In this document: positions 5,201 to 33,427 of the stretch, piece by piece
How the letters are laid out: the number at the start of each line of letters is the position of its first letter
Numbering within the stretch: position 1 is the stretch's first letter
Origin: Desulfuromusa sp.
GTDB taxonomy: Bacteria > Desulfobacterota > Desulfuromonadia > Desulfuromonadales > Geopsychrobacteraceae
Direction of reading: 5' to 3'
DNA: 33,548 nt
Assembly (NCBI GenBank): GCA_027858895.1
Contig: JAQIBX010000041.1
Span: 1-33,548, forward strand
Notes under the pieces: model-generated
Database searches by the model: none
The model's input: only the letters and a program-made list of their open reading frames with translations
What the model was told of the DNA's origin: nothing
Position numbers and translations under genes: made by a program

Positions 5201-5205
5201 CGGCT

Positions 5206-6321
5206 GTGAAATTATTCGATACATTGAAGGAAGCGGTCAATGCTTCGCTCTACTCACCTGCTGATGTGACAACTGGTTCTGTTCACGTGCGTGACAGTAT
5301 CAATCACAAACGGGTCATGAGTATCATTATGCTGGCATTGTTGCCCTGCATCCTGATGGCTATGTGGAACAGTGGATACCAGGCAAACTTAACCCTGAAC
5401 CAGATGTTGGCGGCCGGGCAAATAGACGTTCTGCCGAGCCTCAGTGACAGTACCTCAATCTGTGCCAACATGACCAAAGGGCTGTGGATTTTTCTCCCCT
5501 TGCTGGTTGTCGTCATGTTGACCCAGGCTGTCTGGGTTGCTGTTTTTGCTTCGATGCGGAAAAAAAGGATCGGCTCTGGCTTTCTAGTGACGTCAGTCCT
5601 GATTGTGTTGCTGATGCCCCCAACGGCACCGCTGTGGCAAGTGGCTCTGGCAACATCTTTCGGGGTTGTTATCGGTCGTGAGATCTTTGGCGGAACTGGA
5701 ATGAACTTTTTGAACCCGGCTCTGGTTGCCTGGGCATTCATGACCTTGGCCTATTCGGGATCTATATCGGGCGATGCAGTTTGGACCGCGGTTGATGGCT
5801 ACACTGGCGCAACGCCATTAGCGATGGCTCTGAACGATGGAGTTTCCAGCTTGGCTGCTCAGGGAATATCCTGGCAGGCTGCATTTTTGGGAACCATTCC
5901 TGGTTCTATGGGTGAAACCTCGGCGCTGGCCTGTTTGTTCGGTGCGGTGATCCTGCTAGTCACCGGTATAGCTTCATGGCGCACCATCGCCTCAATCCTG
6001 ATTGGCGTGATCGCTTTTTCCTCAATTCTATTTATGTTTAATCCTGAGGCGATGAGTCCAGCCTGGCACTTGGTCCTTGGTGGTCTGGCATTCGGCACCG
6101 TATTCCTGGCAACAGATCATTCAGCTTCAGCAATGACCGTGAAAGGACAATGGATTTGCGGTTTGTTGATTGGATTTTTGATAGTTGCCGTTCGTGTTTA
6201 CAATCCGACGATGCCTGAAAGTGTCGGAATTATTCTCCTGTTCGGTAGCGTTTTGGCACCATTGGTTGATCGTCTGGTCGTGAACGCACACATCAAGAAA
6301 AGGAAGTTGCGCCATGTCTAA
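5206..6321 (+). CDS. nqrB: Na+-translocating NADH:quinone reductase subunit B
   Basis: 371 aa polytopic membrane protein; covalent-FMN motif 'DGYTGATPLAMAL'; position after nqrA. Confidence 0.96.
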   Translation: MKLFDTLKEAVNASLYSPADVTTGSVHVRDSINHKRVMSIIMLALLPCILMAMWNSGYQANLTLNQMLAAGQIDVLPSLSDSTSICANMTKGLWIFLPLLVVVMLTQAVWVAVFASMRKKRIGSGFLVTSVLIVLLMPPTAPLWQVALATSFGVVIGREIFGGTGMNFLNPALVAWAFMTLAYSGSISGDAVWTAVDGYTGATPLAMALNDGVSSLAAQGISWQAAFLGTIPGSMGETSALACLFGAVILLVTGIASWRTIASILIGVIAFSSILFMFNPEAMSPAWHLVLGGLAFGTVFLATDHSASAMTVKGQWICGLLIGFLIVAVRVYNPTMPESVGIILLFGSVLAPLVDRLVVNAHIKKRKLRHV

Positions 6322-7087
6322 TGATTCTATTTTTAAAACATTCCTGGTTGCCTTCCTGCTCTGTGTCGTCTGTTCAATTCTGGTCTGCCTGGCGGCAATT
6401 GTACGGATCGATAAGGAAGCCTATAACAAGCAGCTTGAAATACGTAAAACGGTTCTCTTTGCTGGTGGTTTTCAGCAACAGATCGACGACGGTGGTGATA
6501 TTGATGAGCTGTTCACCTCGAATATGGAGTTGAAGCTGGTTGATTTGTCGACTGGTGAGTATACCACCGCAGTTGATGCCGCTACTTACGATCAAAAAGA
6601 GGCTGTAGACAATCCAGAATTGTCGGAGAAAATCCCCGCTGATTTAGATTTAGCAGCTATCGGCTCCAGGGCTAAGTACGCTGCTGTTTACTTGGATAAA
6701 AGCGGCGCAGTTATCTTGCCAATTCGAGGTGCTGGAATGTGGGGCCCTATGTACGGTTACATCTCTATTGCTGCCGATGGAACGACAATCAATGGCTTTA
6801 CTTTCTATCAGCATGCTGAAACCCCGGGTCTTGGTGCTGAGGTTGACAACCCCAACTGGAAGAAACAATGGCCCGACAAGCAAGTGTTTAATAGCTCCGG
6901 CAAGCTCGCACTTAAGGTTGTTAAAAAGGGAAAATACAATCCAAGTGCTGCTGACGCTGTCAATACGATTGATGGTATTGCCGGGTCAACAGTTACCGGG
7001 AGCAAGGTTCATGGCATTATCCGCTACTGGTTTGGTGAGCACGGATTTGCCCCATATCTGGCCAAACTTAAAGCAGAGAGAGGTTAA
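6314..7087 (+). CDS. nqrC: Na+-translocating NADH:quinone reductase subunit C
   Basis: 257 aa; one N-terminal TM helix, FMN-binding domain, flavinylation-like motif '[13 protein letters not shown]'; overlaps nqrB by 8 nt. Confidence 0.95.
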
Positions 7088-7089
7088 TC

Positions 7090-7704
7090 ATGGCAAAAGC
7101 AAAAGACGCCCTGCTGGATCCATTATTTAATAACAACCCGATTGCCCTGCAAATTCTTGGTATCTGTTCAGCACTGGCTGTTACCAACAAAATGTCTACG
7201 GCATTAACCATGACTGTCGCCGTTATTTTTGTTACGGCTTGTTCCAATGCGGCAATCAGTGCCATCCGCAACCATATCCCCAACAGTATCCGGATCATCG
7301 TGCAAATGACCATTATTGCGACCCTGGTTATTATTATCGATCAGATGCTCAAAGCTTACCTCTATGAGATGAGCAAGGCGCTGTCGGTTTATGTTGGTCT
7401 GATTATCACAAACTGTATCGTTATGGGGCGTGCTGAAGCCTATGCGATGAAAAACCCAGTGGGTTTAAGTTTTCTCGATGGTGTTGGTAATGGCCTTGGC
7501 TACGGAATAGTTTTGCTGGCAGTTGGATTTGTCCGCGAACTTTTTGGTTCGGGAAAACTCTTCGGCGTCACCATCCTTAACACTGTCAACGATGGTGGTT
7601 GGTATGTCACTAACGGTTTGATGCTGCTTGCTCCCAGTGCCTTTTTCCTGATCGGCTTTATCATCTGGGGTTTGCGTACCTGGAAACCTGAACTCCAAGA
7701 ATAG
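7090..7704 (+). CDS. nqrD: Na+-translocating NADH:quinone reductase subunit D
   Basis: 204 aa membrane protein; '[26 protein letters not shown]' typical of NqrD. Confidence 0.96.
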
Positions 7705-7715
7705 GAATAGCTACA

Positions 7716-8324
7716 ATGTCACATTATTTCATGATTTTCTTTAATTCGGTTTTCATCGATAACATCGCACTTACCTTTTTCCTCGGCATGTGTACCTTCA
7801 TTGCTGTATCAAAGAAGGTCAGTACTGCGATTATGTTGAGTGCTGCTGTCATCGCCGTCGAAGTTATTACGGTTCCAGTCAATAATCTCCTTTACACTTT
7901 TCTCTTGAAAAAAGGGGCATTGGCATGGGCAGGTTATCCGAATCTGGATCTTAGCTTTCTGGGCCTTATCTGTTATATCGGTGTTATTGCCGCGATTGTA
8001 CAGATTCTCGAAATGGCTTTAGATAAGTACTTTCCAGTCCTCTATAACGCTTTAGGAATTTTCCTCCCACTGATCACAGTAAACTGTGCCATCCTCGGTG
8101 CTGTTCTGTTTATGGTTGAGCGCGATTACACTGTGGTAGAGAGTACAATTTATGGTGCGGGGGTTGGTGTTGGCTTTGGTTTAGCTATCTGTCTATTGGC
8201 CGGCATCCGCGAAAAATTAGTCTATAGCGATATCCCTAAGGGCCTACGCGGGGTAGGGGTTACGTTTATCATCGTTGGTTTGATGGCCATGTCGTTCAAG
8301 GCATTCTCCGGTCTGCAATTTTAA
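7716..8324 (+). CDS. nqrE: Na+-translocating NADH:quinone reductase subunit E
   Basis: 202 aa; '[28 protein letters not shown]' and '[12 protein letters not shown]' typical of NqrE. Confidence 0.96.
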
Positions 8325-8363
8325 CGGCAGTATAACCAAGAACAATAAGGATTGGATAATAGT

Positions 8364-9593
8364 ATGGACTTCACACTGATAATAGCCGGATCCACTATGT
8401 TCACGGGAGTTATTCTCGCTCTGGTTGCCATCATCCTGGTGGCACGAAAGAGCTTGGTACCCAGTGGCGAAATCAATTTTTTCATCAACGATGATCCGAA
8501 CAAAACTCTTATTTCTAAGCCTGGTGGAAAGTTATTAGGGGCGTTGGCTGACCAGGGGATTTTTATCCCATCAGCATGCGGTGGTGGTGGCACCTGCGGT
8601 CAGTGTCATGTTCATGTCTTTGACGGTGGTGGCGATATTCTGCCGACCGAAACGGGCTTTATCACGAAACGTCAGGCGAAAGAGGGGCTCCGCTTAGGTT
8701 GTCAGGTTGGCGTCAAGCAAGATATGAAACTCGGTATCCCGGCAGAAATTTTCGATATCAGAAAGTGGGAATGTACCGTTAGATCAAATGATGGCAAAGC
8801 CACCTTTATCAAAGAGTTGATCGTTAACCTTCCTGAAGGGGAAGATTGTGATTTCAGGGCAGGTGGTTATATCCAGATCGAAGCCCCGGCGCATGAAATT
8901 TCCTACTCCGAATTTGATATTGAAGATGAGTACAAGGAAGATTGGGATAAGTTTGATTTGTGGCGTTATAAATCGATCGTTAAAGAACCCATCATGCGCG
9001 CCTATTCGATGGCGAGTTTCCCCTTGGAAAAAGGGATGGTCATGCTAAACGTTCGGGTTTGTCCACCGCCTCCAAATGTGCCAGACGCTCCCCCAGGACA
9101 AATGTCATCGTTTATCTTTAATCTTAAGCCCGGCGATAAGGTCACTATTTCTGGTCCTTACGGTGAGTTCTTTGCCCGTGAAACCGACAACGAGATGGTC
9201 TTTATCGGTGGTGGTGCGGGTATGGCACCGATGCGCTCCCATATCCTTGATCAGCTACTGCGCTTAAACACGACGCGGAAGATGACTTACTGGTATGGAG
9301 CACGTAGCCTTAAAGAGATGTTCTATGTCGAGGAGTTGAACGAATTACAAGAGAAGTATCCAAACTTCAAGTGGTACTGCGCTCTGTCAGATCCAATCCC
9401 GGAAGATAACTGGACCGGCCCGGTTGGCTTTATTCATAATGTCCTTTACGAACTCTATATTAAAGACCACGAAGCGCCGGAAGATTGCGAATACTACATG
9501 TGTGGTCCTCAGCTGATGGCGAACGCAGTGACCAATATGCTGCTTGATCAGGGTGTAGAGCGTGAAAACATCATGTTTGACGATTTTGGCTAA
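8364..9593 (+). CDS. nqrF: Na+-translocating NADH:quinone reductase subunit F
   Basis: 2Fe-2S ligands '[10 protein letters not shown]...C', FAD-binding 'RAYSMAS', NADH domain '[12 protein letters not shown]'. ATG at 8364 preferred over the upstream start at 8352. Confidence 0.96.
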
Positions 9594-9641
9594 AAAAGCT
9601 GTGATGTGCACGCTTGATTTTATCAATAAAGGAGAGACCTG

Positions 9642-10097
9642 ATGTCTTACGGACAAGCAAAAGAGATAATTGATTCCGCCCGGGCGTTTCATCAACGAGC
9701 CAGTACATTTTACCAGCAACTTGCCGATAAAGCGGAAGGTGCCCGGGTTAAAATGTTGCTTGACTACTTGGTCCGCCATGAAGCGCACCTGGATCGTGCA
9801 TTAGCTGATTATACAGAAGAAATCAGATCAAAAGCCCTGAATGCCTGGTACCAATATGCTCAAGAGCAATGTCTGCTGCAACCATTCGATACCAGCCAAT
9901 ATTCGAAGGCTATGACGGTTGAAGAAGTCATGCAAATCGGCCTCAATATCGATAGCTGTCTCGTTGCATCGTACAAAGGGATGGCAGAGACTGCAAACAG
10001 TCCAAAAGTGCGTGAGATTTTTAATGATTTGTTGTTGATGGAAAAACAGCAAAAACATAAATTGGCCAGAATCGCACTTGAAATAAACAATATGTAA
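9642..10097 (+). CDS. Ferritin-like/rubrerythrin-like four-helix protein in nqr operon
   Basis: 151 aa, fully helical pattern: 'ARAFHQRASTFYQQLADKA', 'LVRHEAHLDRAL', 'LLLMEKQQKHKLARIA'. Confidence 0.6.
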   Translation: MSYGQAKEIIDSARAFHQRASTFYQQLADKAEGARVKMLLDYLVRHEAHLDRALADYTEEIRSKALNAWYQYAQEQCLLQPFDTSQYSKAMTVEEVMQIGLNIDSCLVASYKGMAETANSPKVREIFNDLLLMEKQQKHKLARIALEINNM

Positions 10098-10120
10098 GCT
10101 CATCCTGCTGACAGGATTAT

Positions 10121-10150
10121 AAAGCCGCATCAGTTGATGCGGCTTTTTTT
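10121..10150 (+). terminator. Rho-independent terminator
   Basis: AAAGCCGCATCA/TGATGCGGCTTT perfect inverted repeat followed by T run. Confidence 0.9.
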
Positions 10151-10160
10151 TGGAGAAATC

Positions 10161-11207
10161 ATGAAACGGCGATTGTTGATTATCATTGTTTTACTACTGG
10201 TCATAGGTGGTGTGATCTACCTGAACCAGAATAAAACGACCAATGATCAGCTGGTAAATATTAGCGGAACAATCATGGGCACCAGCTATCATATCAAGCT
10301 AGCGCCGACAGCTGAGCAAAAAATCAATCTTCCCGCCCTTAAACAGCAGATCAGTTCTCGCCTTGTTGACATTGACGGCAAGATGTCAACCTATAAAAAA
10401 GATTCAGAAGTTTCACGCTTCAATCGTCATTCAAACCAAAGTTGGATGTCAATCTCAGCTGAAACCATGTCTGTCTTCAATGCAGCTCAGAGGATCAGCC
10501 TGCTGAGCGATGGTGCTTTCGATATCACGATCGGAAAATTGGTTAATCTGTGGGGCTTCGGGCCAACCATCAATATTGATGCAATTCCGGAAGTTGATGC
10601 CATCCAGGCCTTGCTGTCACAGGTTGGATATCATAAACTGGAGTTACGCCAGACACCTCCAGCATTACGTACAAACAGCACAGAGATCTATATTGATCTA
10701 TCGGCAATCGCAAAAGGATACGCAGTCGATGCTATTGCCAGATTATTGTTAGAAAAGCAGATCGTCAACTTTTTGGTGGAAATCGGTGGCGAAATTATTA
10801 CCCATGGAACTAAACAACAACAGCAACCCTGGGTTATCGGCATTGAAAGCCCGCTAGCTGGAGAACGCAGCATCCGAAAACGATTACATCTTGCAGATGT
10901 TGCCATGGCAACATCTGGTGATTATCGTAACTATTTTGAAGACAAAGGAACCCGCTATTCGCACACTATTGACCCTGCGACCGGCTACCCGATAAAACAT
11001 CAGCTGGCATCAGTCACTGTCATCGATAGCTCGTGTATGCGTGCTGACGCTCTGGCCACTGCAATCATGGTCATGGGGCCGGAAAAAGGGTTAGAATTTG
11101 CCAGACAACACCAGTTTGCAATTTTTATGTTGGTAAAACAAGATGATCATTTTATTGAGCAACACAGTTTGGCTTTTGAGCCCTATCTCACATCAGAAGA
11201 GGATTAA
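10161..11207 (+). CDS. apbE: FAD:protein FMN transferase ApbE
   Basis: ATG at 10161 (MKRRLLIIIVLLLVIGGVIYLNQNK); 'GTIMGTSYHIKL', 'DLSAIAKGYAVDAIA', 'THGTKQQQQPWVIGIESP', 'YSHTIDPATGYP', 'CMRADALATAIMVMG' are ApbE signatures. Adjacent to nqr. Confidence 0.95.
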   Translation: MKRRLLIIIVLLLVIGGVIYLNQNKTTNDQLVNISGTIMGTSYHIKLAPTAEQKINLPALKQQISSRLVDIDGKMSTYKKDSEVSRFNRHSNQSWMSISAETMSVFNAAQRISLLSDGAFDITIGKLVNLWGFGPTINIDAIPEVDAIQALLSQVGYHKLELRQTPPALRTNSTEIYIDLSAIAKGYAVDAIARLLLEKQIVNFLVEIGGEIITHGTKQQQQPWVIGIESPLAGERSIRKRLHLADVAMATSGDYRNYFEDKGTRYSHTIDPATGYPIKHQLASVTVIDSSCMRADALATAIMVMGPEKGLEFARQHQFAIFMLVKQDDHFIEQHSLAFEPYLTSEED

Positions 11208-21501: not shown

Positions 21502-22560
21502 TTAAAAACCAGCATATTCCAGAAAAGTGACTGGAGGTTTATAAATTGGTTGTTCTGCAAGCAAATTATAGATTTCTTGGGGGCCAAAATATCTCGCCTC
21601 CAAGGCCCGCCCATGTTCCATCCAGAAACCAAATTGCGGAATAATGGTATTATGGCGAATCGTGTGGTCTATCGTCAGCCCGGCCAGGACAAAAACATTA
21701 ATATCTCTGCCATCAAAACTATCAGTAATATAAGAGGCGATGCGGTGGAACTGTCGCCAGGTATTGATGTTTCCCAAACGGCGATGGGGGAAGGATGAAG
21801 CAACGACTTCGGGCATGAAGTCAAAAAGTGAAACTTCCAGCATAGTCTTGGGTTCATGACTTTCATGGTTCAGATTTTTTCTGAACGAAAACAATCCGGG
21901 TTTTAGTAAGTTTCCGATAGGTTGCGGACGTTCTTGCAGTGATTCCAGTAATTCCGATTCTTCGTTGGCAATTTTGAAGTGCGCCCGATAAATTTTGCCA
22001 AGGGTTCCTTCGCCAAGGGCGCTTCCATCAACCAAGCCATTGACGTTAATGACTATGCGGGCGGTGTCGCTTACAGGTTTCTCGAAAAGATATTTATAAG
22101 GGATTTCAATTTTGACAATATTTTCCTCCCGAAAAATTTTAATCAACTGGGTTGCGCGCCGGTAAATCTGTAAATATTCATCCAAAACTCTTCCCAACAT
22201 TCCGCAGCAGGGGACAAGATTGCCATTGATCCTTTCTATATAACCAATACCTGAAGATTCTTGGGCGCCGATATGGCTGCCACCGAGGATAACGACATCT
22301 TTTCCGTGATGAGAAGTCGTTGCAAGACGGGTCGGATCAAGCAATGCACCCACTCGCCCTAAATTGAAGGTAGGACAATTATAGACATAGCCAAAAAGGG
22401 CTTTTTTGATCGATTGGCTTTCATCCGAACACTGCCAAATGGCGGGAAGGGTTTTTTCAAAACCGGCCTTATCCGTCAAGCTGCGCATCCTCCCATAGAG
22501 TTCCATCAAATCCATTGGGGTTTGGTCAAGAAAGCTTTCAGCGGGAGGGGCAATCGGCAT
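21502..22560 (-). CDS. Uncharacterised protein; possible LCIB-like beta-CA fold domain
   Basis: 352 aa; segment 'NLGRVGALLDPTRLATTSHHGKDVVILGGSHIGAQESSGIGYIERINGNLVPCCGMLGRVLDEY' has a Cys/His/Cys-Gly arrangement reminiscent of LCIB-family proteins. Adjacent to and co-oriented with a beta-carbonic anhydrase. Confidence 0.4.
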   Translation of the reverse strand: MPIAPPAESFLDQTPMDLMELYGRMRSLTDKAGFEKTLPAIWQCSDESQSIKKALFGYVYNCPTFNLGRVGALLDPTRLATTSHHGKDVVILGGSHIGAQESSGIGYIERINGNLVPCCGMLGRVLDEYLQIYRRATQLIKIFREENIVKIEIPYKYLFEKPVSDTARIVINVNGLVDGSALGEGTLGKIYRAHFKIANEESELLESLQERPQPIGNLLKPGLFSFRKNLNHESHEPKTMLEVSLFDFMPEVVASSFPHRRLGNINTWRQFHRIASYITDSFDGRDINVFVLAGLTIDHTIRHNTIIPQFGFWMEHGRALEARYFGPQEIYNLLAEQPIYKPPVTFLEYAGF

Positions 22561-22598: not shown

Positions 22599-23282
22599 CT
22601 AAAGCGGGTTTTCTTGCACTTTAGGCGAGTAGCGTTTAACCAGTATTTCAAATGCTCCAGTCAGCTGATTGTAGTATTTCAGCTGTCCAGTCTCAATATT
22701 GTAGTACCAGCCGTGCAAGCTCAATTGCCCTTTAGAAACTCTTTCTTTGACCCAAGGGAAGGTCATCAGGTTCTTCAGCGAAACCAGGACTGCTTCTCTT
22801 TCGCAGGCTCGTGCTTGTTTTTCTGGCGACTCATCCGGCATTTCCTGCAAAACTTTATCACGAGCCGATGCTGCGATATTGACCCACTTACCAATAAATT
22901 CCCCCGCTTCTTTGCCATTGGCAGATGCCATCAGTGCTCCGATGCCGCTACATTTGGAATGACCCAGGATAATAATATCTGAAACTTCCAGATAGCAAAC
23001 CGCATATTCAAGAGAGGAACTAACGCCATGATAATCATCATTTTTCAGGTAAGGAGGAACAAGGTTCGCAATGTTCCTTAAAATAAACAGGTCCCCAAGA
23101 GAACAGTCCATCAACAAAGCCGGATCAACTCTGGAATCACAACAGCCGATCAAAAGTGCTTGAGGCTTCTGACCATCGACCAAAGTATTAGCTAGCTCCG
23201 AATTTTCACCAAAGTGCTGCTGCTGAAAAGTTTCAATTCCAGTGAGAAATTTAGTTACATCTGCCATCATTATTGCCTCCAT
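22599..23282 (-). CDS. Beta-class carbonic anhydrase
   Basis: 227 aa; 'LLIGCCDSRVDPALL' (Cys, Asp/Arg dyad), 'ILGHSKCSGIGAL' (HxxC zinc ligands). Start may be the internal Met of 'MADVTKF'. Confidence 0.95.
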   Translation of the reverse strand: MEAIMMADVTKFLTGIETFQQQHFGENSELANTLVDGQKPQALLIGCCDSRVDPALLMDCSLGDLFILRNIANLVPPYLKNDDYHGVSSSLEYAVCYLEVSDIIILGHSKCSGIGALMASANGKEAGEFIGKWVNIAASARDKVLQEMPDESPEKQARACEREAVLVSLKNLMTFPWVKERVSKGQLSLHGWYYNIETGQLKYYNQLTGAFEILVKRYSPKVQENPL

Positions 23283-23455: not shown

Positions 23456-24139
23456 GTGGAAATGAATCTTTCGGTTAAAGATGCTGCACAGTTGCTGTCA
23501 GTTTCGCAAAAATCTATCTATCGGTGGGTCAAACAGGACATCATCCCAGTTTACAAGATTAGCGGCAACTACCGTTTTAGCAGGGGCGAACTTCTGGACT
23601 GGGCTACCTCTAATCGGAAGGGCACTGTAGTTAAGGACTCCTGTGACTCAGAGTCCGCTGTTCTTCCGCTGCCGAACCTTGTTGAAGCGCTAGAGAGTGG
23701 TGGTGTGTTCTACCGCATTGAAGGTCTCACCCGTGAAGAGGTTCTGGCGACTGCGGTCACCCATCTGAGATTATCGGATAATGTCGACCGAGGCTATCTG
23801 CTGGAAGTGCTGCGCGCTCGTGAAGAGCTTACCTCAACCGCCATTGGCGATGGGATTGCCATCCCTCACCCACGCAACCCAGTTTTGTTGAATGCTCAAC
23901 GAGCAAAGGTGACGCTCTGCTTTTTGGACCAGGCGGTTGATTTTTACGCTTTAGATGGCAAGCCAGTCAAAATTCTACTCCTTATTATCGCCCCGAACCT
24001 TCGCTCGCATCTGCACCTGCTCTCTCGACTAGGTTTCGTGCTCCGAGATCCAGAGTTCCTTCAGGTTCTGCACGGCGAAGAAAGCCGAGAAAAAATCTTT
24101 GCCGCTTTGGCATGTGCCGAGGGGAAATTAAAAGCGTGA
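23456..24139 (+). CDS. HTH (excisionase/MerR-like)-PTS EIIA (PtsN/fructose-type) fusion regulator
   Basis: N-terminus 'MNLSVKDAAQLLSVSQKSIYRWVKQDIIPVYKISGNYRFSRGELLDWA' is an excisionase-type HTH. C-terminus contains EIIA motif 'REELTSTAIGDGIAIPHPRNP' with phosphorylatable His. Start GTG 23456 or ATG 23462. Confidence 0.88.
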   Translation: MEMNLSVKDAAQLLSVSQKSIYRWVKQDIIPVYKISGNYRFSRGELLDWATSNRKGTVVKDSCDSESAVLPLPNLVEALESGGVFYRIEGLTREEVLATAVTHLRLSDNVDRGYLLEVLRAREELTSTAIGDGIAIPHPRNPVLLNAQRAKVTLCFLDQAVDFYALDGKPVKILLLIIAPNLRSHLHLLSRLGFVLRDPEFLQVLHGEESREKIFAALACAEGKLKA

Positions 24140-24182: not shown

Positions 24183-26174
24183 ATGAACCTATTTTTGTGC
24201 GCATTGATTCTGTTGTTTGGCGGCAGCCTCATTGTATTGCCAATCCGCAAATCCTCCTTAGCGGCGCTGCTGGGCACGTTGACCACCGTGTTGGCTACGC
24301 CCCTGACTGGTTACGTTGCGCTGAAAGTTCTGCTCTCTGGTCAGTCACTGTCTCTTTCTTTGCCTTGGTCTGTTCCTGGTGCAGAATTCAATCTCTTACT
24401 TGATCCGCTCGCAGCATTTTTCGTACTGCCAATATCGGCACTCTCGCTTTTCTGTGCACTTTATGCCGGAGCCTACTTGGAACATGATGGTCAAACTCGA
24501 CCATTAACACCGCACTGGTTTTTCTTCAATATTATGGTGCTTGCCATGCTGTTGGTGGTAACAGCATCCAATGCTGTGCTGTTTTTAGCAGTCTGGGAGA
24601 TCATGACCATTTCTTCCTTTTTCTTGGTCGCCTGGGATCATCATCTCGAAGATGTTCGTAAGGCTGCCTGGCTTTACCTCCTGGCTGCTCACGTCGGCAT
24701 GATGTTACTGATTGCTTTGTTTATTCTGGCTGGTCGCTACTGCGGAAGTCTCAACTTTAGTGACTTCGGTCTGCTGGCGAAGTTACCACTCAGCATCGCT
24801 TCACTCCTTTTTTTGCTCGCTCTGTTTGGTTTCGGGGTTAAGGCTGGACTTTTTCCTGTTCATATCTGGCTGCCGGATGCACACCCCGCGGCTCCCAGCC
24901 ATGTCTCTGCCTTGATGTCGGGCGTTTTGATCAAGACCGGTATCTACGGTATTCTGCGCATTCTAAGTTTTTTGCCACCAGCTCCAGCTTGGTGGGGCTG
25001 GCTGATGGCACTGCTTGGCGCAGGTGGTGCTGTCTACGGAATTTCCATGGCCGCACAACAGCGGGATATCAAACGCTGTCTGGCTTATTCAACCGTTGAA
25101 AACATCGGCATTATTTTTCTTGCCCTCGGTTTTGGCATGGTGGCTGTTACCGGGGGCCATCCGACAATAGCGCTTTTCACTTTTGCTGGAGGATTATTGC
25201 ATCTCTGGAATCATGCCCTGTTCAAGGGGGTGATGTTTCTCGGTGCCGGTGCTTTGCTGCATGCGACGGGGACCCGTGATATGAACCACATGGGAGGACT
25301 GCTACGGCGCATGCCTTTGACAGGGCTGCTTTGGATCGGTGGGAGTTTAGCGATTGGCGCTTTACCCCCGCTCAATGGGTTCATCAGCGAATGGTTGATC
25401 TACATTGGTTTGGCCCAAGCAGGTACGGCTCTGGAAGGCTACGCTGCTCTGGCGCCACTGTTGCTGTTTGGTCTTCTCGGTCTGGTTGGCGCTCTGGCCC
25501 TGGTTACTTTCTCCCGCTTGATCGGCATCTGCCTTCTTGGCCAACCGCGTAACTCAACAGTTGCCTGCGCCCAGGATACGCCACCAATTATGTTGATCTG
25601 TATTGGCTGTCTGTTAACGGGATGTTTAGCGATCGGGACCTTTCCACAAGGGGCTCTGAGGTTGCTAATGAAACCTCTCTCTCAAGTCACACGGTTGCCG
25701 ATTGGTGAAGAGTTGGTTCAAGCTGTTGCCCCTCTGGGACAGTGGAATTTAATGCTCTTAGCTAGCCTGGTTGTTCTTGCTGGATTACTTGTCTGGCTGC
25801 GTCATCTTCGACCTCTGGCGCAGGCAGCTACTTGGGGCTGCGGCTATCGTTTTCCAACAGCACGAATGTCTTACACCGGCGAGGGATATGCAGGATTCGC
25901 TTCGCAACATCTGTTGCCAGGAGTCATGCGCCCTGAAGTCAGTGGCGGCAAGGTGTGCGGGCTTTTCCCTCCCCCCACTGCACTGGCTCAGCATTCAACC
26001 GATCCGGTGCTAATGCGTTTTTTGCAGCCCATATTCGTAGCAATTGCCGAGCGTTGCCAATGGCTGCACTGGTTGCAGCAGGGAAAGATGCCGATCTATC
26101 TGGTTTATATTTTTGTTACCAGTGTGGTGCTAATGGCCTGGAGTATTTGGGCTGGTGGACATGGAGGAGGATGA
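24183..26174 (+). CDS. Hydrogenase-4 subunit B-like (NuoL/Mrp antiporter-type) membrane subunit, copy 1
   Basis: 663 aa polytopic; 'WEIMTISSFFLVAWDH', 'FGVKAGLFPVHIWLPDAHPAAPSHVSALMSGVLIKTGIYG', 'DIKRCLAYSTVENIGII', 'NHALFKGVMFLGAG'. Confidence 0.92.
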   Translation: MNLFLCALILLFGGSLIVLPIRKSSLAALLGTLTTVLATPLTGYVALKVLLSGQSLSLSLPWSVPGAEFNLLLDPLAAFFVLPISALSLFCALYAGAYLEHDGQTRPLTPHWFFFNIMVLAMLLVVTASNAVLFLAVWEIMTISSFFLVAWDHHLEDVRKAAWLYLLAAHVGMMLLIALFILAGRYCGSLNFSDFGLLAKLPLSIASLLFLLALFGFGVKAGLFPVHIWLPDAHPAAPSHVSALMSGVLIKTGIYGILRILSFLPPAPAWWGWLMALLGAGGAVYGISMAAQQRDIKRCLAYSTVENIGIIFLALGFGMVAVTGGHPTIALFTFAGGLLHLWNHALFKGVMFLGAGALLHATGTRDMNHMGGLLRRMPLTGLLWIGGSLAIGALPPLNGFISEWLIYIGLAQAGTALEGYAALAPLLLFGLLGLVGALALVTFSRLIGICLLGQPRNSTVACAQDTPPIMLICIGCLLTGCLAIGTFPQGALRLLMKPLSQVTRLPIGEELVQAVAPLGQWNLMLLASLVVLAGLLVWLRHLRPLAQAATWGCGYRFPTARMSYTGEGYAGFASQHLLPGVMRPEVSGGKVCGLFPPPTALAQHSTDPVLMRFLQPIFVAIAERCQWLHWLQQGKMPIYLVYIFVTSVVLMAWSIWAGGHGGG

Positions 26175-26175
26175 T

Positions 26176-28143
26176 ATGATGTGGCTGGTAGGAAGCATCT
26201 TGTTGACTTCGCTTGCAGGTGTCCCAGGGCTATTTTACCGTCGGGAAGGCTCTGGTGGAGAACGATTTGCCTGCGGGTTGATACTGGCCGGCTGCGGCAG
26301 TGGGCTGATTGCAGTGGCACTAACCCTGCTGTCGGATAACGTAATACAATTCGCTATCCCCTGGTCAATGCCCGGAGGCGTTCTGGCCTTACGCCTTGAT
26401 GCGATTACCGCCGCTTTTTTGTTGCCCCTTTTTCTCGTCGTTGCGACGGGGGCAGTTTATGGCCTCGGTTATTGGCCGCAACATAACAACCCCGGCAACG
26501 GCCGCAACTTACGCCTGTTTTACGGTTTGATTAGCGGAGCAATGATCCTCCTCCTGTCAGCTCGCAATGGGGTGCTGTTTTTGATGGCGTGGGAGATTAT
26601 GGCACTAGCCGGTTTTTTCCTCATTATCACCGAAGAGCATAAAGAGGAAGTTCGCCGAGCCGGATTTATCTATCTAATCGCCACCCATACGGGCACATTG
26701 GCCCTCTTTGCCCTTTTTGCCCTACTCGGTCACAATTCAGAATCTCTGTTATTTCCAGATATGGGAACCCTGCCGGCTGCCGGGAGCAGTCTGATATTTC
26801 TTCTCGGTTTATTTGGTTTCGGCATGAAGGCCGGGCTGATGCCAATGCACATCTGGTTGCCGGGGGCTCACGCCGCAGCCCCCAGTCATGCTTCGGCGCT
26901 ATTGTCTGGAATCATGATCAAGACTGGCATCTATGGCTTGGTGCGGATGACCTCTTTTTTTACTGAAATTCCTGCTTGGTGGGGATGGACTCTGCTGATT
27001 CTGGGCGCAATTTCGGGAATTTTTGGTGTGGCACTGGCAATCGCTCAACACGACATCAAGAGGTTGCTCGCCTACCATAGCGTTGAGAATATTGGCATCA
27101 TCACCCTGGGTCTGGGGCTTGCGTTGCTTGGGCGCAGCTATAATCAGCCAGCACTGGTGCTGCTCGGCCTTTCCGGTTGTTTGCTGCATGTGGTCAATCA
27201 CGCCCTATTTAAGTCGCTGCTATTTCTGAGTGCTGGTTCGGTCATTCATGCGGTCGGGAGTCGGGAAATCGACCATTTCGGCGGTCTACTTAAACGCCAG
27301 CGCTGGACCGGCCTCTACTTTCTCGGTGGTGCTGTTGCGATCAGTGGCCTGCCACCATTCAATGGTTTTGTCAGTGAGTGGCTCATCTATCTTGGCGCTT
27401 TTCAGCCGATCCATCACCCCGGCTCGAGCCTGTCCTTTGCCCTACTCACAGCCCCGGCATTGGCCGTGATTGGTGTCTTGGCTTTAGCTTGTTTCGTAAA
27501 AATCTTCGGCATCAGTTTTCTTGGTGAGCCACGTAGTTCCGGGGCTGCAAAGGCCCATGAAGCTCCGCGTACTATGCTCTGGCCGATGGGATTTTTGTTG
27601 CTTGCTTGCATCTGGATCGGCTTACTCCCGACCAGCCTACGGCCATTACTAGAAAGGGCCGCTACAGACTGGTCGGGGAATCTGACGCTGCCGAAACTGA
27701 CTGGCAATCTCGCCCCGTTAAGCGCTATTAGCGTTGCGGGCTGGTTGGTGCTTGGCCTGCTGCTGTTTATCGGCTGGCTGTTACACCGGCAAAGTGCCCA
27801 GGCTTCGCGTGATATTGGGACCTGGGGATGCGGTTATCAATTCCCGGCTATGCGCATGCAATACACTTCCAGCTCCTTTGCCGACAGTTTGGTGCGGTTG
27901 TTCCGTTTCGGTCTGTGGAGTAAACGCCACGGTGGGCAAGTCCGTGGACTCTTTCCAGGGCGGGAGGAATTTTCCAGCCACACCCCCGATCTGGTTCTTG
28001 ACCGAGCGCTGACCCCGGCTTTTACCGGCTTGGCCTGGCTGTTCCGCTGGCTGCGTAGCCTGATACAGAACGGTATTGCGGCAATCTATCTTCTTTATAT
28101 TGCACTGACCCTGATCGTACTTTTAACCTTGCTGCTCCGCTGA
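26176..28143 (+). CDS. Hydrogenase-4 subunit B-like membrane subunit, copy 2
   Basis: 'FGMKAGLMPMHIWLPGAHAAAPSHASALLSGIMIKTGIYG', 'DIKRLLAYHSVENIGII', 'NHALFKSLLFLSAG'. Co-linear with the preceding ORF; ATG at 26176 preferred. Confidence 0.92.
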   Translation: MMWLVGSILLTSLAGVPGLFYRREGSGGERFACGLILAGCGSGLIAVALTLLSDNVIQFAIPWSMPGGVLALRLDAITAAFLLPLFLVVATGAVYGLGYWPQHNNPGNGRNLRLFYGLISGAMILLLSARNGVLFLMAWEIMALAGFFLIITEEHKEEVRRAGFIYLIATHTGTLALFALFALLGHNSESLLFPDMGTLPAAGSSLIFLLGLFGFGMKAGLMPMHIWLPGAHAAAPSHASALLSGIMIKTGIYGLVRMTSFFTEIPAWWGWTLLILGAISGIFGVALAIAQHDIKRLLAYHSVENIGIITLGLGLALLGRSYNQPALVLLGLSGCLLHVVNHALFKSLLFLSAGSVIHAVGSREIDHFGGLLKRQRWTGLYFLGGAVAISGLPPFNGFVSEWLIYLGAFQPIHHPGSSLSFALLTAPALAVIGVLALACFVKIFGISFLGEPRSSGAAKAHEAPRTMLWPMGFLLLACIWIGLLPTSLRPLLERAATDWSGNLTLPKLTGNLAPLSAISVAGWLVLGLLLFIGWLLHRQSAQASRDIGTWGCGYQFPAMRMQYTSSSFADSLVRLFRFGLWSKRHGGQVRGLFPGREEFSSHTPDLVLDRALTPAFTGLAWLFRWLRSLIQNGIAAIYLLYIALTLIVLLTLLLR

Positions 28144-28157
28144 AAGGAAGATAACCA

Positions 28158-29072
28158 ATGATCGGCCGGATTGCATTGCAACTTACTGTCCTGCTCCTCT
28201 TCGCCCCGCTTCCATTGGGGGTGATCAATAAGACCAAGGCGCTTTTTGCCGGTCGTATCGGGCCGCCACTGCTGCAGCCTTATTACGATCTGGCCCGGCT
28301 CTGGCGAAAGGGGTTTGTCTTCAGTCGCACCACGACCTGGGTGTTTCTGACGGGACCGGTGGTAGGACTCGTTGTGCCGCTATTAGCCGTACAACTGCTC
28401 CCTTTTGGTGGGTTGCAAGCTCCGATCTCCTTTACCGGTGACCTGATCCTCTTTGTCTACCTCTTCGGACTCTCACGTTTTTTTACCGCTATTGCGGCAT
28501 TGGATACCGGATCAAGTTTCGAAGGGATGGGTGCTGCACGTGAAGTCACCTTCTCCTGCCTGGCCGAGCCGACCCTGTTGTTTTCGCTGCTGGTTCTGGC
28601 TCGCAGTGCCGACAGCCTCTCTCTGGGGGCTCTACTTGGCCCACAGCTAGCAAACCAATGGCTAACGGAGATCGGAGCTTCGCTTGGACTGATCGTGGTT
28701 TGTCTGTTTGTGGTGCTGCTGGTTGAAAATTCACGCATACCTTTCGACGACCCCAACACCCATCTGGAACTGACCATGATCCATGAAGTGATGGTGCTCG
28801 ATCACAGTGGTCCAGCCTTAGGCATGATTCTCTATGGTGCGGCCCTTAAGTTGATGGTGATGAGTGCACTGCTGGTGCGGATAGTTCTGCCGCTGCAAAC
28901 CGGGTCGCTGTTTCTTGATTTACTGGTCTTTTTGTTGGGACTAATGGGATTGGCTGTACTCATCGGCATGGTTGAGTCCACCATGGCTCGGCTGAGTCTG
29001 CCACGGGTACCGCAGGTTCTGGTCGGCACTATGCTGCTGTCGGTCTTTGCTCTGGTTTTGGTCTTGCGCTAG
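28158..29072 (+). CDS. Hydrogenase-4 subunit C-like (NuoH/HycD) membrane subunit
   Basis: 304 aa; 'KTKALFAGRIGPPLLQPYYDLARLWRKG', 'ENSRIPFDDPNTHLELTMIHEVMVLDHSGP' are HyfC/HycD signatures. Confidence 0.93.
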   Translation: MIGRIALQLTVLLLFAPLPLGVINKTKALFAGRIGPPLLQPYYDLARLWRKGFVFSRTTTWVFLTGPVVGLVVPLLAVQLLPFGGLQAPISFTGDLILFVYLFGLSRFFTAIAALDTGSSFEGMGAAREVTFSCLAEPTLLFSLLVLARSADSLSLGALLGPQLANQWLTEIGASLGLIVVCLFVVLLVENSRIPFDDPNTHLELTMIHEVMVLDHSGPALGMILYGAALKLMVMSALLVRIVLPLQTGSLFLDLLVFLLGLMGLAVLIGMVESTMARLSLPRVPQVLVGTMLLSVFALVLVLR

Positions 29073-29082
29073 GAGAATTTTG

Positions 29083-29712
29083 ATGGCTAATTTGCTTCTT
29101 ATTACCGTTATTCTTATTAATTTCTTTACCCTCGGTAGCGCCCGCCTGGTTGCCTGTATCCGCGCTGTTGCCGTACAGGGAGCCCTGCTTTCGTTGTTGC
29201 CCCTGGTAGCCCATGGGATGTCTGGGCACGCCCTGATCCTTGGCACCGGGGCTCTGATTTTCAAGGGTATTTTGATCCCTTGGCTGCTGCTGCGAGCAAT
29301 CCGAGAAGCCCGCATCCGCCGCGAAGTGGAACCTTACATCGGTTTCGTTGCAACCTTGGTGCTTGGTGCACTGGTCACCGCCGGGGCATTTATCTTCGCC
29401 GATTTTCTTCCGTTAGCTCAGGAACATCATGAAGGGCTGTTTGTGCCGGCAGCTCTAGCCACCATGTTCAGCGGCTTTCTATTGCTGATCACCCGACGTA
29501 AAGCGATTACTCAAGTACTAGGATACCTGATGCTGGAAAACGGAATCTTTATTTTTTCTGTCCTTCTTTCGGTGGCTATTCCGCTGATGGTTGAGGCCGG
29601 AATACTGCTTGATCTGTTGGTCAGCGTCTTCGTCATGGGGATCGTGCTTAACCAGATCAACCGTGAATTTTCCACCCTTAACACCGAACGTCTGACAGCA
29701 CTGAAGGAATAG
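29083..29712 (+). CDS. Hydrogenase-4 subunit E-like (NuoK-type) membrane subunit
   Basis: MANLLLITVILINFFTLGSARL...; 'TQVLGYLMLENGIFIFSVLLS' HyfE-like; between HyfC- and HyfF-like genes. Confidence 0.85.
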   Translation: MANLLLITVILINFFTLGSARLVACIRAVAVQGALLSLLPLVAHGMSGHALILGTGALIFKGILIPWLLLRAIREARIRREVEPYIGFVATLVLGALVTAGAFIFADFLPLAQEHHEGLFVPAALATMFSGFLLLITRRKAITQVLGYLMLENGIFIFSVLLSVAIPLMVEAGILLDLLVSVFVMGIVLNQINREFSTLNTERLTALKE

Positions 29713-29715
29713 GCC

Positions 29716-31143
29716 ATGTTGCTACTTTTAATTCTGTTTCCGCTGGCGATGGCCGGTTTAGCCATGCTGCTCCCTTGGTACCAAGGGCGTTCCTGGTTAC
29801 TGCCTATCAGCGGGGGACTGCATTTGCTGCTGTCTGCACTCTGCGTTACTGAATCTGGTGCTGTCCTCGGTATCTGGATTGGGCTTGATGCCCTTTCTAA
29901 ACTGGTCCTGATCGTTATTAGCTTGCTTTATTTTGGTTGTGCCATCTACGCCGTCGGCTATCTCAATCTGCGCCGAGACCGAGGTAACAAGGCCATTGTC
30001 CCCTATCTGCTGGTCTTTTTATCGACAATGACCCTGGCAATTTCTGCTCGACACTTCGGTCTGCTCTGGGTGGCAGTTGAAGCAACAACCATCGCCAGTG
30101 CACCGCTGATCTATTACAACTGCAACCGCTTGTCGATCGAGGCGACCTGGAAATACCTGTTGCTTTGCTCAGTTGGCATTGCGTTGGCAATGCTCGGTAT
30201 CCTGTTTATTGCATACGCAGCACTGGTCGGTGGCGCGGTGCCTGTCAACTTGCATATAGATTCCCTGCTTTCTGGCGCCACCAATTTATCTCGTCCCTGG
30301 CTGCATGCTGGCTTTGTCTTCCTGCTGGTCGGATTTGGCACCAAAATGGGCTTAGCTCCTCTGCATACATGGAAACCTGATGCCTATGGTGAAGCTCCGG
30401 GCATGGTTGGTGCCTTGCTTGCAGGGGGACTGACCAGTGTTGCCTTTCTTGCCATCTTACGTGTCATGCAACTCATGTCAGCCGCCGGAGATGGCGCTAT
30501 GGCACGTCAGGCGCTGCTCGGGATGGGATTGCTGTCGCTATTGATAGCAGCGATTTTTATGGTCCGCCAACCTGATATCAAGCGATTGTTGGCATATTCC
30601 TCGGTCGAGCACATGGGGATTCTCGCCATCGGGGTCGGCATCGGGGGTCTGGCGACCTTTGGGGCCATGCTCCATCTGGTTAACAATGCTTTGACCAAGG
30701 GCTGTTTGTTCCTCTCCGCTGGCAACATTCAGCGAGGCTATGACAGCAAACAGCTTTCCAAGGTGCATGGGGCAATCGCCACCCTGCCTATCTCTGGCAG
30801 TTTATTTCTGGCCGGATTCCTGGCAATTGCCGGGTCTCCTCCCTTTGGCCTTTTCATCAGTGAGTTTACCATCCTGCGGGGCATCTTCGGCAGCGGTCAG
30901 ATCTGGGTAGGCCTGTTGATGTTGGCGCTTTTGGCAATGATTTTTATCGGTATGGGAGCAACCGTACTGAGTGCGACACAAGGGGGACCGGTGAAAGTTG
31001 ATAACCAATTCAAAGACAGCTTTCTGCTGGTCGTTTCACCGATCATGTTTCTATTCTTGGTCCTCATGCTCGGAGTTTACCTTCCCGAATCGTTGCAAAC
31101 GGCTCTGCGTGAGGCTGCCGAGCTGTTGGAGGTGCACCCATGA
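29716..31143 (+). CDS. Hydrogenase-4 subunit F-like (NuoN/NuoL-type) membrane subunit
   Basis: 475 aa; 'FGTKMGLAPLHTWKPDAYGEAPGMVGALLAGGLTSVAFLAILR', 'DIKRLLAYSSVEHMGILAIGVG'. Confidence 0.92.
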   Translation: MLLLLILFPLAMAGLAMLLPWYQGRSWLLPISGGLHLLLSALCVTESGAVLGIWIGLDALSKLVLIVISLLYFGCAIYAVGYLNLRRDRGNKAIVPYLLVFLSTMTLAISARHFGLLWVAVEATTIASAPLIYYNCNRLSIEATWKYLLLCSVGIALAMLGILFIAYAALVGGAVPVNLHIDSLLSGATNLSRPWLHAGFVFLLVGFGTKMGLAPLHTWKPDAYGEAPGMVGALLAGGLTSVAFLAILRVMQLMSAAGDGAMARQALLGMGLLSLLIAAIFMVRQPDIKRLLAYSSVEHMGILAIGVGIGGLATFGAMLHLVNNALTKGCLFLSAGNIQRGYDSKQLSKVHGAIATLPISGSLFLAGFLAIAGSPPFGLFISEFTILRGIFGSGQIWVGLLMLALLAMIFIGMGATVLSATQGGPVKVDNQFKDSFLLVVSPIMFLFLVLMLGVYLPESLQTALREAAELLEVHP

Positions 31144-32660
31144 CTGCTTCGCAATTGGTTCGCTCCCGTAATGGTGGGGTTGTGTCACTGGATAAGCTGC
31201 CACAACTTGATTACACCCAGTTCAGCGAATCCTTGTTGGCAGAGGTGGCGACAGATGCCAGAGTTGCCAGTTATTTTGGCCGACCGGTTGAGAATGGACT
31301 GGAAATCTACGCCATCCTGGTTCGTGATTGGGAGGGGGAAGTCGAGTTACTGCGCACCTGTGTTAACGGGTCGTTTCCATCTCTGACACCTCAGTGCCCG
31401 CAACTGCACCTGTTCGAACGTGAATTGGCCGAACAGTACGGGGTGCGCCCTGAAGATCATCCCTGGCTGAAGCCGGTTCGTTTTCACGCCCCCTGGATTG
31501 ATGCTACTGATATCTGGGGCCGCCCGAAGGGGGTCCACCCGGTTCCCGGCGACATGGAGTTCTATCGGGTTGAGGGGGAGGAAGTCCATGAGGTGGCCGT
31601 CGGGCCGGTCCACGCAGGGGTGATTGAACCGGGGCATTTTCGCTTTCAGTGTCATGGCGAAGAGGTCATGCATCTGGAAATTTCTCTCGGTTACCAGCAC
31701 CGCAACATCGAACAGATGTTGATAGGGGGTCCACATCCAACCAGCATCTATCAGCTTGAAACTGTTGCCGGAGATACCACAATCGGCCACGTAACCGCCT
31801 ATTGCCAGCTGATAGAAAGCCTTGCAGGGACTGTAGCTCCATTGCGCGCTCAGGCTATCCGCGCTATTGCCCTCGAACTGGAACGATTAGCCAATCACGT
31901 CGGGGATATTGGTGCCCTTGCTGGAGATGTCGGTTTTCTGCCGACAGCTTCGTTTTGCGGCCGCTTACGTGGCGACTACCTGAACCTGATGGCGGAACTC
32001 TGCGGTAGCCGTTTTGGCCGTGGATTGGTGCGACCAGGAAATGTCCAGTTCGATTTGGACGCGTCTTTGGTGGAGGCGCTGATAAAACGCTTGGCCATTC
32101 TTGAGACCGAAACTCGCGGGGCTATCGAACTCTGTTTCGATTCTCCTTCAGTTTTAGCTCGATTCGAAGGGACCGGAACCATAGCGACAGATGACGCCGA
32201 GGCTCTAGGGTTGGTTGGCGTTGCAGCAAGGGCTTGTGGTCTGGTTCGTGATGCCAGACTCCACCACGCCTTCGGTAGCTGCGGAAACAACATCGACACG
32301 CCGATCATTGAGATCGATGGCGACGTTTTCGCCCGGGGCAATATCCGCAGGCGAGAGATCTATGCTTCGCATAAACTGATCCATCGTTCTCTCAAGCGGC
32401 TTGCTGCAGGAGAAATAGATTCCCCTCTGGGGGCACTCGCCCCCGATTCTCTCGTGGTTTCTCTCTGTGAAGGTTGGCGTGGTGAAGTGGTCCATGCAGC
32501 AATCACTAACGCTACCGGACAGATTGATCGATACAAGATTGTCGATCCATCATTTCACAACTGGAGTGGGCTTGCGTTGTCCCTACGTGGCCAGCAAATT
32601 TCTGACTTTCCACTGTGCAACAAGAGCTTTAACTTGTCGTATTGTGGTTTTGATCTTTAG
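31140..32660 (+). CDS. HyfG/HycE-like large subunit (NuoC-NuoD fusion) lacking NiFe-ligating CxxC motifs (Ehr-type)
   Basis: NuoC-like N-terminus ('LHLFERELAEQYGVRPEDHPWLKPVRFH') and NuoD/HycE-like body ('HLEISLGYQHRNIEQMLIGG'). 'ETVAGDTTIGHVTAYCQ' replaces the expected 'RVCGIC..H....CQ', and 'KSFNLSYCGFDL' replaces 'DPCxxC'. ATGA overlap with upstream gene. Confidence 0.9.
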   Translation: MTASQLVRSRNGGVVSLDKLPQLDYTQFSESLLAEVATDARVASYFGRPVENGLEIYAILVRDWEGEVELLRTCVNGSFPSLTPQCPQLHLFERELAEQYGVRPEDHPWLKPVRFHAPWIDATDIWGRPKGVHPVPGDMEFYRVEGEEVHEVAVGPVHAGVIEPGHFRFQCHGEEVMHLEISLGYQHRNIEQMLIGGPHPTSIYQLETVAGDTTIGHVTAYCQLIESLAGTVAPLRAQAIRAIALELERLANHVGDIGALAGDVGFLPTASFCGRLRGDYLNLMAELCGSRFGRGLVRPGNVQFDLDASLVEALIKRLAILETETRGAIELCFDSPSVLARFEGTGTIATDDAEALGLVGVAARACGLVRDARLHHAFGSCGNNIDTPIIEIDGDVFARGNIRRREIYASHKLIHRSLKRLAAGEIDSPLGALAPDSLVVSLCEGWRGEVVHAAITNATGQIDRYKIVDPSFHNWSGLALSLRGQQISDFPLCNKSFNLSYCGFDL

Positions 32661-32671
32661 GGAGCGCCCTT

Positions 32672-33427
32672 ATGTTGACAATTATCCGTGAACGCCTGCG
32701 CCAGGGGCACCGCACCGGAAAGTTCCCGAAAGTTGAACCTCAATTGCCAGAATGCTTTCGTGGCTTGCCCCAGATCGTCGAAAATCTTGCTCCGCAGATT
32801 TATGTCGCTGCCGCTGCTAGTTGCCCGTTCAACGCTCTTAGTTACGATAGTGAAAAATTAAACATCGATCTTGGTCGTTGCTTATTCTGTGCCGATTGCC
32901 CTGCGGCGACCGAACATGGCGCTTTAACTTTCAGTCGGGATTACCGATTAGCGGCAAGCCGGCGTGAAGATCTGTTATTGGGGGATGACGTTTATCGGCT
33001 GGCTGAAAAACTCAATAAGAGAATGCTCAAGCTGTTTGGCCGATCGCTAAAACTACGCCAAGTTTCAGCCGGGGGCTGCAATGCTTGCGAGGCAGATCTC
33101 AACGTGCTCAGTACCCTGGTCTTTGACCTCGGCAGGTTCGGTATTCAATTCGTTGCCTCACCTCGACATGCTGATGGCATTTTAGTTACTGGACCTGTCA
33201 CTGCAAACATGCAAAGTGCCCTGCTCGACACGTATGCCGCCATTCCCGAACCCAAGCTGGTCATTGCGTCTGGTGCTTGTGCTATCGGTGGCGGCCCTTT
33301 CTGCAACAGTCTGGAAACTCATCAAGGTGTTGGCGACTTGCTGCCAGTTGATCTCTATATCCCCGGTTGTCCTCCCCACCCCTACACCGCTCTAGATGGT
33401 CTGCTGCGGCTACTTGGTCGACGCTAA
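32672..33427 (+). CDS. HyfI/NuoB-like small subunit with N-terminal ferredoxin-type domain
   Basis: 251 aa; 'ASCPFNAL...DLGRCLFCADCPAATEHGALTF' ferredoxin-like, then NuoB-type ligands 'GGCNACEADL', 'GACAIGGGPF', 'IPGCPPHPYTALDGLLRLL'. Confidence 0.92.
   Translation: MLTIIRERLRQGHRTGKFPKVEPQLPECFRGLPQIVENLAPQIYVAAAASCPFNALSYDSEKLNIDLGRCLFCADCPAATEHGALTFSRDYRLAASRREDLLLGDDVYRLAEKLNKRMLKLFGRSLKLRQVSAGGCNACEADLNVLSTLVFDLGRFGIQFVASPRHADGILVTGPVTANMQSALLDTYAAIPEPKLVIASGACAIGGGPFCNSLETHQGVGDLLPVDLYIPGCPPHPYTALDGLLRLLGRR

Follow-up and report, generated by a model that had tools for sequence, protein, structure and literature searches.

The ehr locus

The window, the whole stretch of 33,548 nt analysed here, is an entire contig of Desulfuromusa sp., and its 3' end lies 121 nt past the small-subunit gene of an operon (Table 1). 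The operon encodes, in this order, a regulator, two HyfB-like subunits, HycD-, HyfE- and HyfF-like subunits, and a large and a small subunit, and the same gene order is found in relatives, complete genomes among them. The last seven genes form, in a single cluster, the set of an energy-converting hydrogenase-related (Ehr) complex. The locus is a type-1 Ehr, with a membrane arm composed of EhrA1, EhrA2, EhrB, EhrC and EhrD and a peripheral arm composed of EhrL and EhrS. Complexes of this kind are already known, and the locus is a complete further copy. Ehr, a widespread complex I relative, has been reported in nitrifiers, ammonia-oxidising archaea, mycobacteria and CPR bacteria. Ehr complexes without CxxC motifs are described as having unknown function (PMC6349859, PMC10284858, PMC12342949, PMC10432482, PMC7304191, PMC6728331), and the statement of the first-pass annotation that the Ehr reaction is not established is consistent with the first three of these papers.

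Table 1. Positions of the ehr operon features and the adjacent carbonic anhydrase gene in the window
Feature	Coordinates	Strand	Basis
beta-carbonic anhydrase (Pro_CA), CxDSR and HxxC zinc motifs intact	22599..23282	-	Pfam, motifs
Putative regulator of the operon, HTH_17-PTS_EIIA_2 fusion with phosphorylatable-type His138	23456..24139	+	Pfam
ehrA-1, antiporter-type subunit resembling HyfB/NuoL, with retained key Glu/Lys	24183..26174	+	Residue comparison
ehrA-2, antiporter-type subunit resembling HyfB/NuoL, with retained key Glu/Lys	26155..28143	+	Residue comparison
ehrB, HycD/NuoH-like membrane subunit	28158..29072	+	Pfam, residue comparison
ehrC, HyfE-like (NuoK-like) membrane subunit	29047..29712	+	Pfam, homology
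ehrD, HyfF/NuoN-like antiporter-type membrane subunit	29716..31143	+	Kept key residues
ehrL, large subunit, NuoC-like N-terminal and HycE/NuoD-like domains, 506 aa	31140..32660	+	Pfam, PDB match, AlphaFold
AGDT, residues 210-213, in place of the first NiFe motif CGIC	31767..31778	+	HycE alignment
NKSFNLSYCGFDL, residues 494-506, C-terminus, in place of DPCxxC	32619..32657	+	HycE alignment
ehrS, small subunit, fused ferredoxin-like and NuoB/HycG-like domains	32672..33427	+	Pfam, cluster ligands

The Pfam and homology assignments bear out the earlier count of five membrane subunits, three of them antiporter-like. The TM5 Glu, TM7 Lys and TM12 Glu are present in all three antiporter-like subunits, in keeping with the expectation that the ion-translocating subunits are intact; the TM8 Lys is replaced in ehrD, likewise in HyfF. 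The window operon contains no gene for a partner oxidoreductase or a ferredoxin. Elsewhere in the window, positions 3863-11207 carry nqrA-F, a Na+-NQR operon, and after it genes for rubrerythrin-like and ApbE proteins, with hrcA-grpE-dnaK-dnaJ downstream. A 352 aa protein without a Pfam match is encoded at 21502-22560 on the reverse strand, and its gene is linked to the carbonic anhydrase gene in G003 and G012 as well.

The large subunit and its remodelled pocket

The EhrL reading frame starts with ATG and comprises Complex1_30kDa and Complex1_49kDa domains. Its best PDB match, both by sequence (E=1.4e-39) and by the fold of the AlphaFold model (pLDDT 85, TM 0.83), is HycE of the E. coli formate hydrogenlyase (7z0s_E). 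The alignment with HycE confirmed that both NiFe-binding CxxC motifs are lost, the ligands C241, C244, C531 and C534 being replaced by A210, T213, S500 and G503, respectively, and that no CxxC occurs anywhere in the 506 residues. The replacement motif TVAGDT was correctly identified in the first-pass annotation, except that its start was placed one codon late: residues 208-213 correspond to nt 31761-31778. The second motif, NLSYCG, lies where it had been placed, as residues 498-503 (nt 32631-32648). The C-terminus of EhrL aligns with R537, the end of mature HycE, and there is no C-terminal extension; since EhrL stops at the mature end, neither C-terminal cleavage nor a maturation protease is needed.

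HypD is absent from the host genome, which is 98.7% complete and in which the positive controls were detected, and therefore the NiFe cofactor cannot be built. It is also absent from the Ehr carriers G001, G003, G012, G017 and G053, and was found in 39 of 60 relatives. A true NiFe hydrogenase with displaced ligands is ruled out by the lack of both CxxC and HypD, and the Ehr complex is not a hydrogenase.

In a maximum-likelihood tree (quick search, SH-aLRT support, long branches flagged, archaeal MBH, MBS and Fpo left out), the Ehr large subunits of types 1, 1b and 2 are monophyletic with a support of 97, and types 1 and 1b together with 99. Ehr forms its own clade, nested among CxxC-bearing group 4 sequences, and the branch uniting it with the HycE group has a support of only 80. 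The window EhrL groups with that of Desulfuromusa sp. (86% over the tree columns). The seven-gene set, the lost ligands and the placement in a monophyletic Ehr clade that includes Geobacteraceae thus uphold the assignment to the Ehr class. EhrL-like genes are present in 157 of 244 Desulfuromonadia genomes.

Two further groups of large subunits were encountered. L199 and L200 represent a third cysteine-less lineage (RFSGSSAFAH; ...GLSVAESDR), which the tree connects to Ehr through long branches. L174-L179, from the Desulfobacterota genomes G421, G293, G328, G400, G254 and G256, encode HycE homologues of 37-39% identity. In these proteins DPCFSC is intact, and the first NiFe motif is U-G-I-U by virtue of two in-frame TGA codons (a single one in L178, giving UGIC). 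These may be double-selenocysteine group 4 hydrogenases, a kind of enzyme that the passages covered in two selenoprotein reviews do not mention.

The replaced pocket is strongly conserved. The signature AGD(T/S) together with NKSxxxSYxG-x-DL at the C-terminal end is fixed in approximately 111 distinct homologues, which span over a dozen phyla. In the alignment of Ehr large subunits (135 rows, about 111 distinct sequences), practically every row has, far beyond chance, A/S, T/S, S and G at the four former Cys positions; the exceptions at position 210 are one G and one C. G211, D212, W446, R447, S496, S500, Y501, G503, D505 and L506 are constant, and position 213 accepts just T and S. Also invariant are N494, K495 and D469. 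The scan patterns by which the 80 genome loci were found contained neither of the pocket motifs, although one of them (VDPSFHNW) spans D469. As compared to its nearest relative, ehrL has a pN of 0.087 and a pS of 0.70, giving a dN/dS of about 0.05 with dS near saturation, and the gene is under strong purifying selection. Because the replaced positions are shared across the 135 aligned rows, a sequencing error is excluded, and the same change in about 111 distinct sequences, together with purifying selection, rules out a pseudogene. These observations agree with the earlier judgement that EhrL is a coherent protein and not a decayed one. Geobacter Ehr has been regarded as already non-functional (PMC13194489, for G. 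sulfurreducens), and the loss of the NiFe ligands and the absence of HypD from the host genome would suit a decayed remnant of a group 4 hydrogenase; however, the fixed pocket, the purifying selection and the conservation of the whole gene set across phyla argue against this view, which we find hardly credible. The fixed signature argues instead that Ehr acts on a substrate of its own, as an enzyme or as a pump.

The residues kept and lost in the pocket narrow the possible chemistry. The HycE proton-relay residues E193, H284, E437 and R478 are retained as E163, H253, E406 and R447, so that the Glu of the beta1-beta2 loop (E163), the canopy Arg (R447), H253 and E406 are all kept from hydrogenases. 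On the other hand, EhrL has N498 in place of the canopy Asp that hydrogenases and complex I strictly share (HycE D529), the position of the complex I quinone ligand Tyr87 is occupied by G211, and EhrL has no His at the beta1-beta2-loop position, where E163 stands. The roles of the HycE proton-relay, canopy and quinone-site residues have been described (PMC9474812). Since the Tyr/His quinone ligands and the canopy Asp are replaced, no known substrate site is recognisable, and given the pattern of kept and lost residues, neither hydrogenase nor canonical quinone chemistry is expected. The new invariants are D212, N494, K495, S500, W446 and D469. According to the HycE alignment, the former NiFe cavity would be lined by D212, T213, S500, Y501, N494, K495, R447 and W446, with low confidence in the last 16 residues of the single-chain model. 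The retention of the proton relay and of the N2 cluster speaks for redox chemistry on a different small molecule, with ion movement coupled to it.

One such substrate could be sulfane sulfur (polysulfide), as in archaeal MBS, another NiFe-less relative. MBS has the same general build, with an N2-type cluster beside a former NiFe cavity (the relation is cited in PMC9474812), but the Ehr pocket has many invariant polar residues of its own and no sulfur gene was recognised beside the window operon, making this reading very unlikely.

Iron-sulfur clusters, regulator and carbonic anhydrase genes

In EhrS, the ferredoxin-like domain binds one [4Fe-4S] cluster through C51, C70, C73 and C76, equivalent to N6b, and the NuoB/HycG-like domain carries the N2-type ligands C136, C139, C203 and C233. 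The N6a/N6b assignment is one that we take from general complex I ligand patterns. The proximal-cluster motif is CNAC, without the tandem Cys of NuoB. The window EhrS lacks the N6a-type ligand set; both N6a and N6b are kept in about 70 of 85 full-length EhrS sequences. Essentially every one of the 93 small subunits has the N2-type ligands, and all full-length ones have those of N6b, a conservation indicating that electron transfer is under selection. In type-2 Ehr, the EhrL is about 37% identical and the small subunit lacks the ferredoxin domain, leaving the N2 cluster only. A long electron wire is thus not essential to all Ehr complexes. At L118, L126 and L171, two subtypes occur in tandem. 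The series N6a, N6b and N2, then N6b and N2, then N2 only constitutes a natural experiment on the minimal wiring of a redox-driven pump.

The HTH_17 and PTS_EIIA_2 gene lies upstream in 39 of the 52 Ehr loci with upstream coverage, from at least 11 named phyla, and its phosphorylatable-type His is kept in 50 of 58 regulators. The gene is present in 141 of 244 Desulfuromonadia genomes. These observations point to probable control of the ehr operon by the phosphotransferase relay.

In the window, a beta-carbonic anhydrase (CA) gene lies 173 nt upstream of the regulator in divergent orientation. The same divergent pair is found in G001 and G003, which with G000 represent the genus of the window, and in G012 both genes are at contig ends. 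An alignment of the intergenic region from three genomes revealed no clear shared operator. Beyond this genus but within the class, a beta-CA gene adjoins the 3' end of ehrS in G166, lies downstream of or near ehrS in G080 and G068, and in G141 and G181 is flanked on either side by ehrA genes (Pro_CA, about 174 bits). In 13 Geobacterales genomes, a CsoSCA-type CA occupies the position between the two ehrA genes, mostly shown directly within the operon, although in fragmented assemblies some of these genes are seen with the regulator only, and in G232 on its own contig only. Thus, two different CA types use the same operon slot in Desulfuromonadia. The CsoSCA-type Pfam scores are 28.7-33.1 against a cut-off of 21.5, with an NCBIfam match far below the equivalog cut-off; the structure model has a pLDDT of 51, and the fold search with this low-confidence model gave four significant matches, all CsoSCA. 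The CsoSCA-like gene (L083:1933-3018 and homologues) occurs in 31 of 244 Desulfuromonadia genomes, and outside Geobacterales it sometimes adjoins a beta-CA of the window type (G017, G024, G028).

Within 12.5 kb of ehrL, 8 Pro_CA genes were observed as compared to 0.56 expected by chance, in a test that treated related genomes (about five lineages) as independent and was chosen after the neighbour had been noticed. No Pro_CA was found near Ehr in the loci outside Desulfuromonadia, and CA linkage as a general Ehr feature is therefore rejected. We regard the linkage as a real but lineage-limited hint of function.

This hint invites the reading that Ehr is a CA-assisted CO2/bicarbonate machine, in which redox-driven proton movement through Ehr would make CO2 hydration by the partner CA vectorial, as in cyanobacterial NDH-1MS, or would manage cytosolic pH and bicarbonate. 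The beta-CA or CsoSCA-type genes in or beside the ehr operons of several Desulfuromonadia lineages speak for it, as does their excess over chance within the limits of that post hoc test. However, with no Pro_CA near Ehr beyond Desulfuromonadia, most ehr operons lacking CA and the CsoSCA-like gene located away from Ehr in 18 genomes, we judge it unlikely. In a narrower form that we rate a little lower still, the Desulfuromonadia Ehr would be the pump of a redox-powered CO2/bicarbonate system, its pocket and membrane arm working with the CA in or beside the operon to render CO2 hydration or dehydration vectorial. If true, vectorial CO2 hydration or dehydration would operate in bacteria without known CO2-concentrating machinery.

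The pocket signature, the second Ehr subtype with the N2 cluster only, the N6a loss in the window lineage, the conserved HTH/PTS-EIIA regulator and the recurrence of CA genes within or next to Desulfuromonadia ehr operons are new findings. In the open-access literature, to which Coppi 2005 and Marreiros 2013 do not belong, no earlier report of a CA-Ehr or PTS-regulator-Ehr linkage was found. The two links are testable handles, through CO2 dependence and through regulation by nitrogen or carbon status, and among the leads to the substrate, the one to CO2/bicarbonate is the most novel.

Proposed function and comparison with known systems

The reading that we favour, with about as much doubt as confidence, is that Ehr is a redox-driven ion pump in which electrons pass from a low-potential donor via N6b and N2 to a substrate other than H2 in the remodelled pocket. 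A cytosolic donor, probably reduced ferredoxin, would feed electrons to EhrS, where the single retained N6b-type [4Fe-4S] cluster would pass them to the N2-type cluster, and these would reduce a small molecule other than H2, bound in what was once the NiFe cavity. The resulting protonation changes may be relayed by Glu163 of the beta1-beta2 loop and by acidic residues of EhrB, driving H+ or Na+ across the membrane through the three antiporter-like subunits in a direction that may be reversible. Besides the conserved ligands, relay and channel residues, the formate-linked abundance of G. sulfurreducens Ehr (PMC7894505) fits this reading; the lack of oxidoreductase and ferredoxin genes in the operon, the N2-only wiring of type 2, the missing match to any known substrate site and the non-functional view of Geobacter Ehr (PMC13194489) speak against it.

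Alternatively, formate electrons might enter EhrS from a formate dehydrogenase (FDH) and pass to quinone or another acceptor, resulting in a pump that resembles formate hydrogenlyase but makes no H2. This FDH-Ehr hypothesis has already been put forward (PMC6349859), and it accords with the abundance of G. sulfurreducens Ehr on formate as compared to H2-containing conditions (PMC7894505), the sister-like tree position relative to HycE, and a molybdopterin oxidoreductase gene between ehrL and ehrS in one Geobacter locus, L081. Nevertheless, no FDH gene is found in the window operon or recognised in the conserved gene order of other Ehr loci, and the canonical quinone residues are absent; we therefore regard this reading as improbable. 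The stretch between the two subunit genes at L081 (11552-14291, a Geobacter MAG) also contains an IclR regulator gene, and this arrangement may be an FDH-Ehr one. In the same class, L167 carries genes for an NrfD-type membrane protein, a ferredoxin-type Fe-S protein and a cytochrome c antisense between the ehrA genes (5069-7565, reverse strand), and a GAPDH-like protein of 481-495 aa is encoded directly 3' of ehrS in several Geobacterales operons (L112:12315-13766, L205, L206 and others).

The closest known systems are the Geobacter Ehr complexes, GSU0739-0745 (PMC7894505, PMC6349859 and PMC13194489, citing Coppi 2005 and Marreiros 2013), for which the Geobacter loci L081, L087 and L095, MAGs among them, served in the comparison rather than GSU0739-0745 themselves. 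They have in common with the window locus the set of seven genes (in the papers, subunits A-1, A-2, B, C, L and S) and a group 4-like large subunit without NiFe ligands, the Geobacteraceae orthologues being 54-57% identical to EhrL. The window lineage differs by lacking the distal N6a-type cluster and by its divergent upstream beta-CA gene, whereas most other full-length EhrS sequences keep N6a and some Geobacterales have the CA inside the operon.

With HycE, HycG and HycD of E. coli (7z0s) and with Hyf, Ehr shares the EhrL fold, the HyfB/HyfE/HyfF-like membrane arm, the CxxC-type N2 cluster and the Glu, Arg and His proton-relay residues, but it lacks the NiFe site, the C-terminal extension, FdhF/HycB and the maturation genes, and the separate HycF and HycG of the E. 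coli hydrogenase correspond to a single fused EhrS. As compared to complex I (NuoB/C/D/H/L/M/N), the arms are homologous and the N6b and N2 chain and the antiporter Glu and Lys residues are shared, while the Ehr operon lacks the NADH module, EhrS the tandem Cys, and EhrL the Tyr/His quinone ligands, with Asn in place of the canopy Asp. Finally, NDH-1MS and DAB carry out vectorial CO2 hydration (PMC13144422). In Ehr, the CA is a separate gene that is missing from most ehr operons, and the link is known from the genes alone; nonetheless, in some Desulfuromonadia, Ehr has in common with these systems antiporter-like membrane subunits that are genetically linked with carbonic anhydrase.
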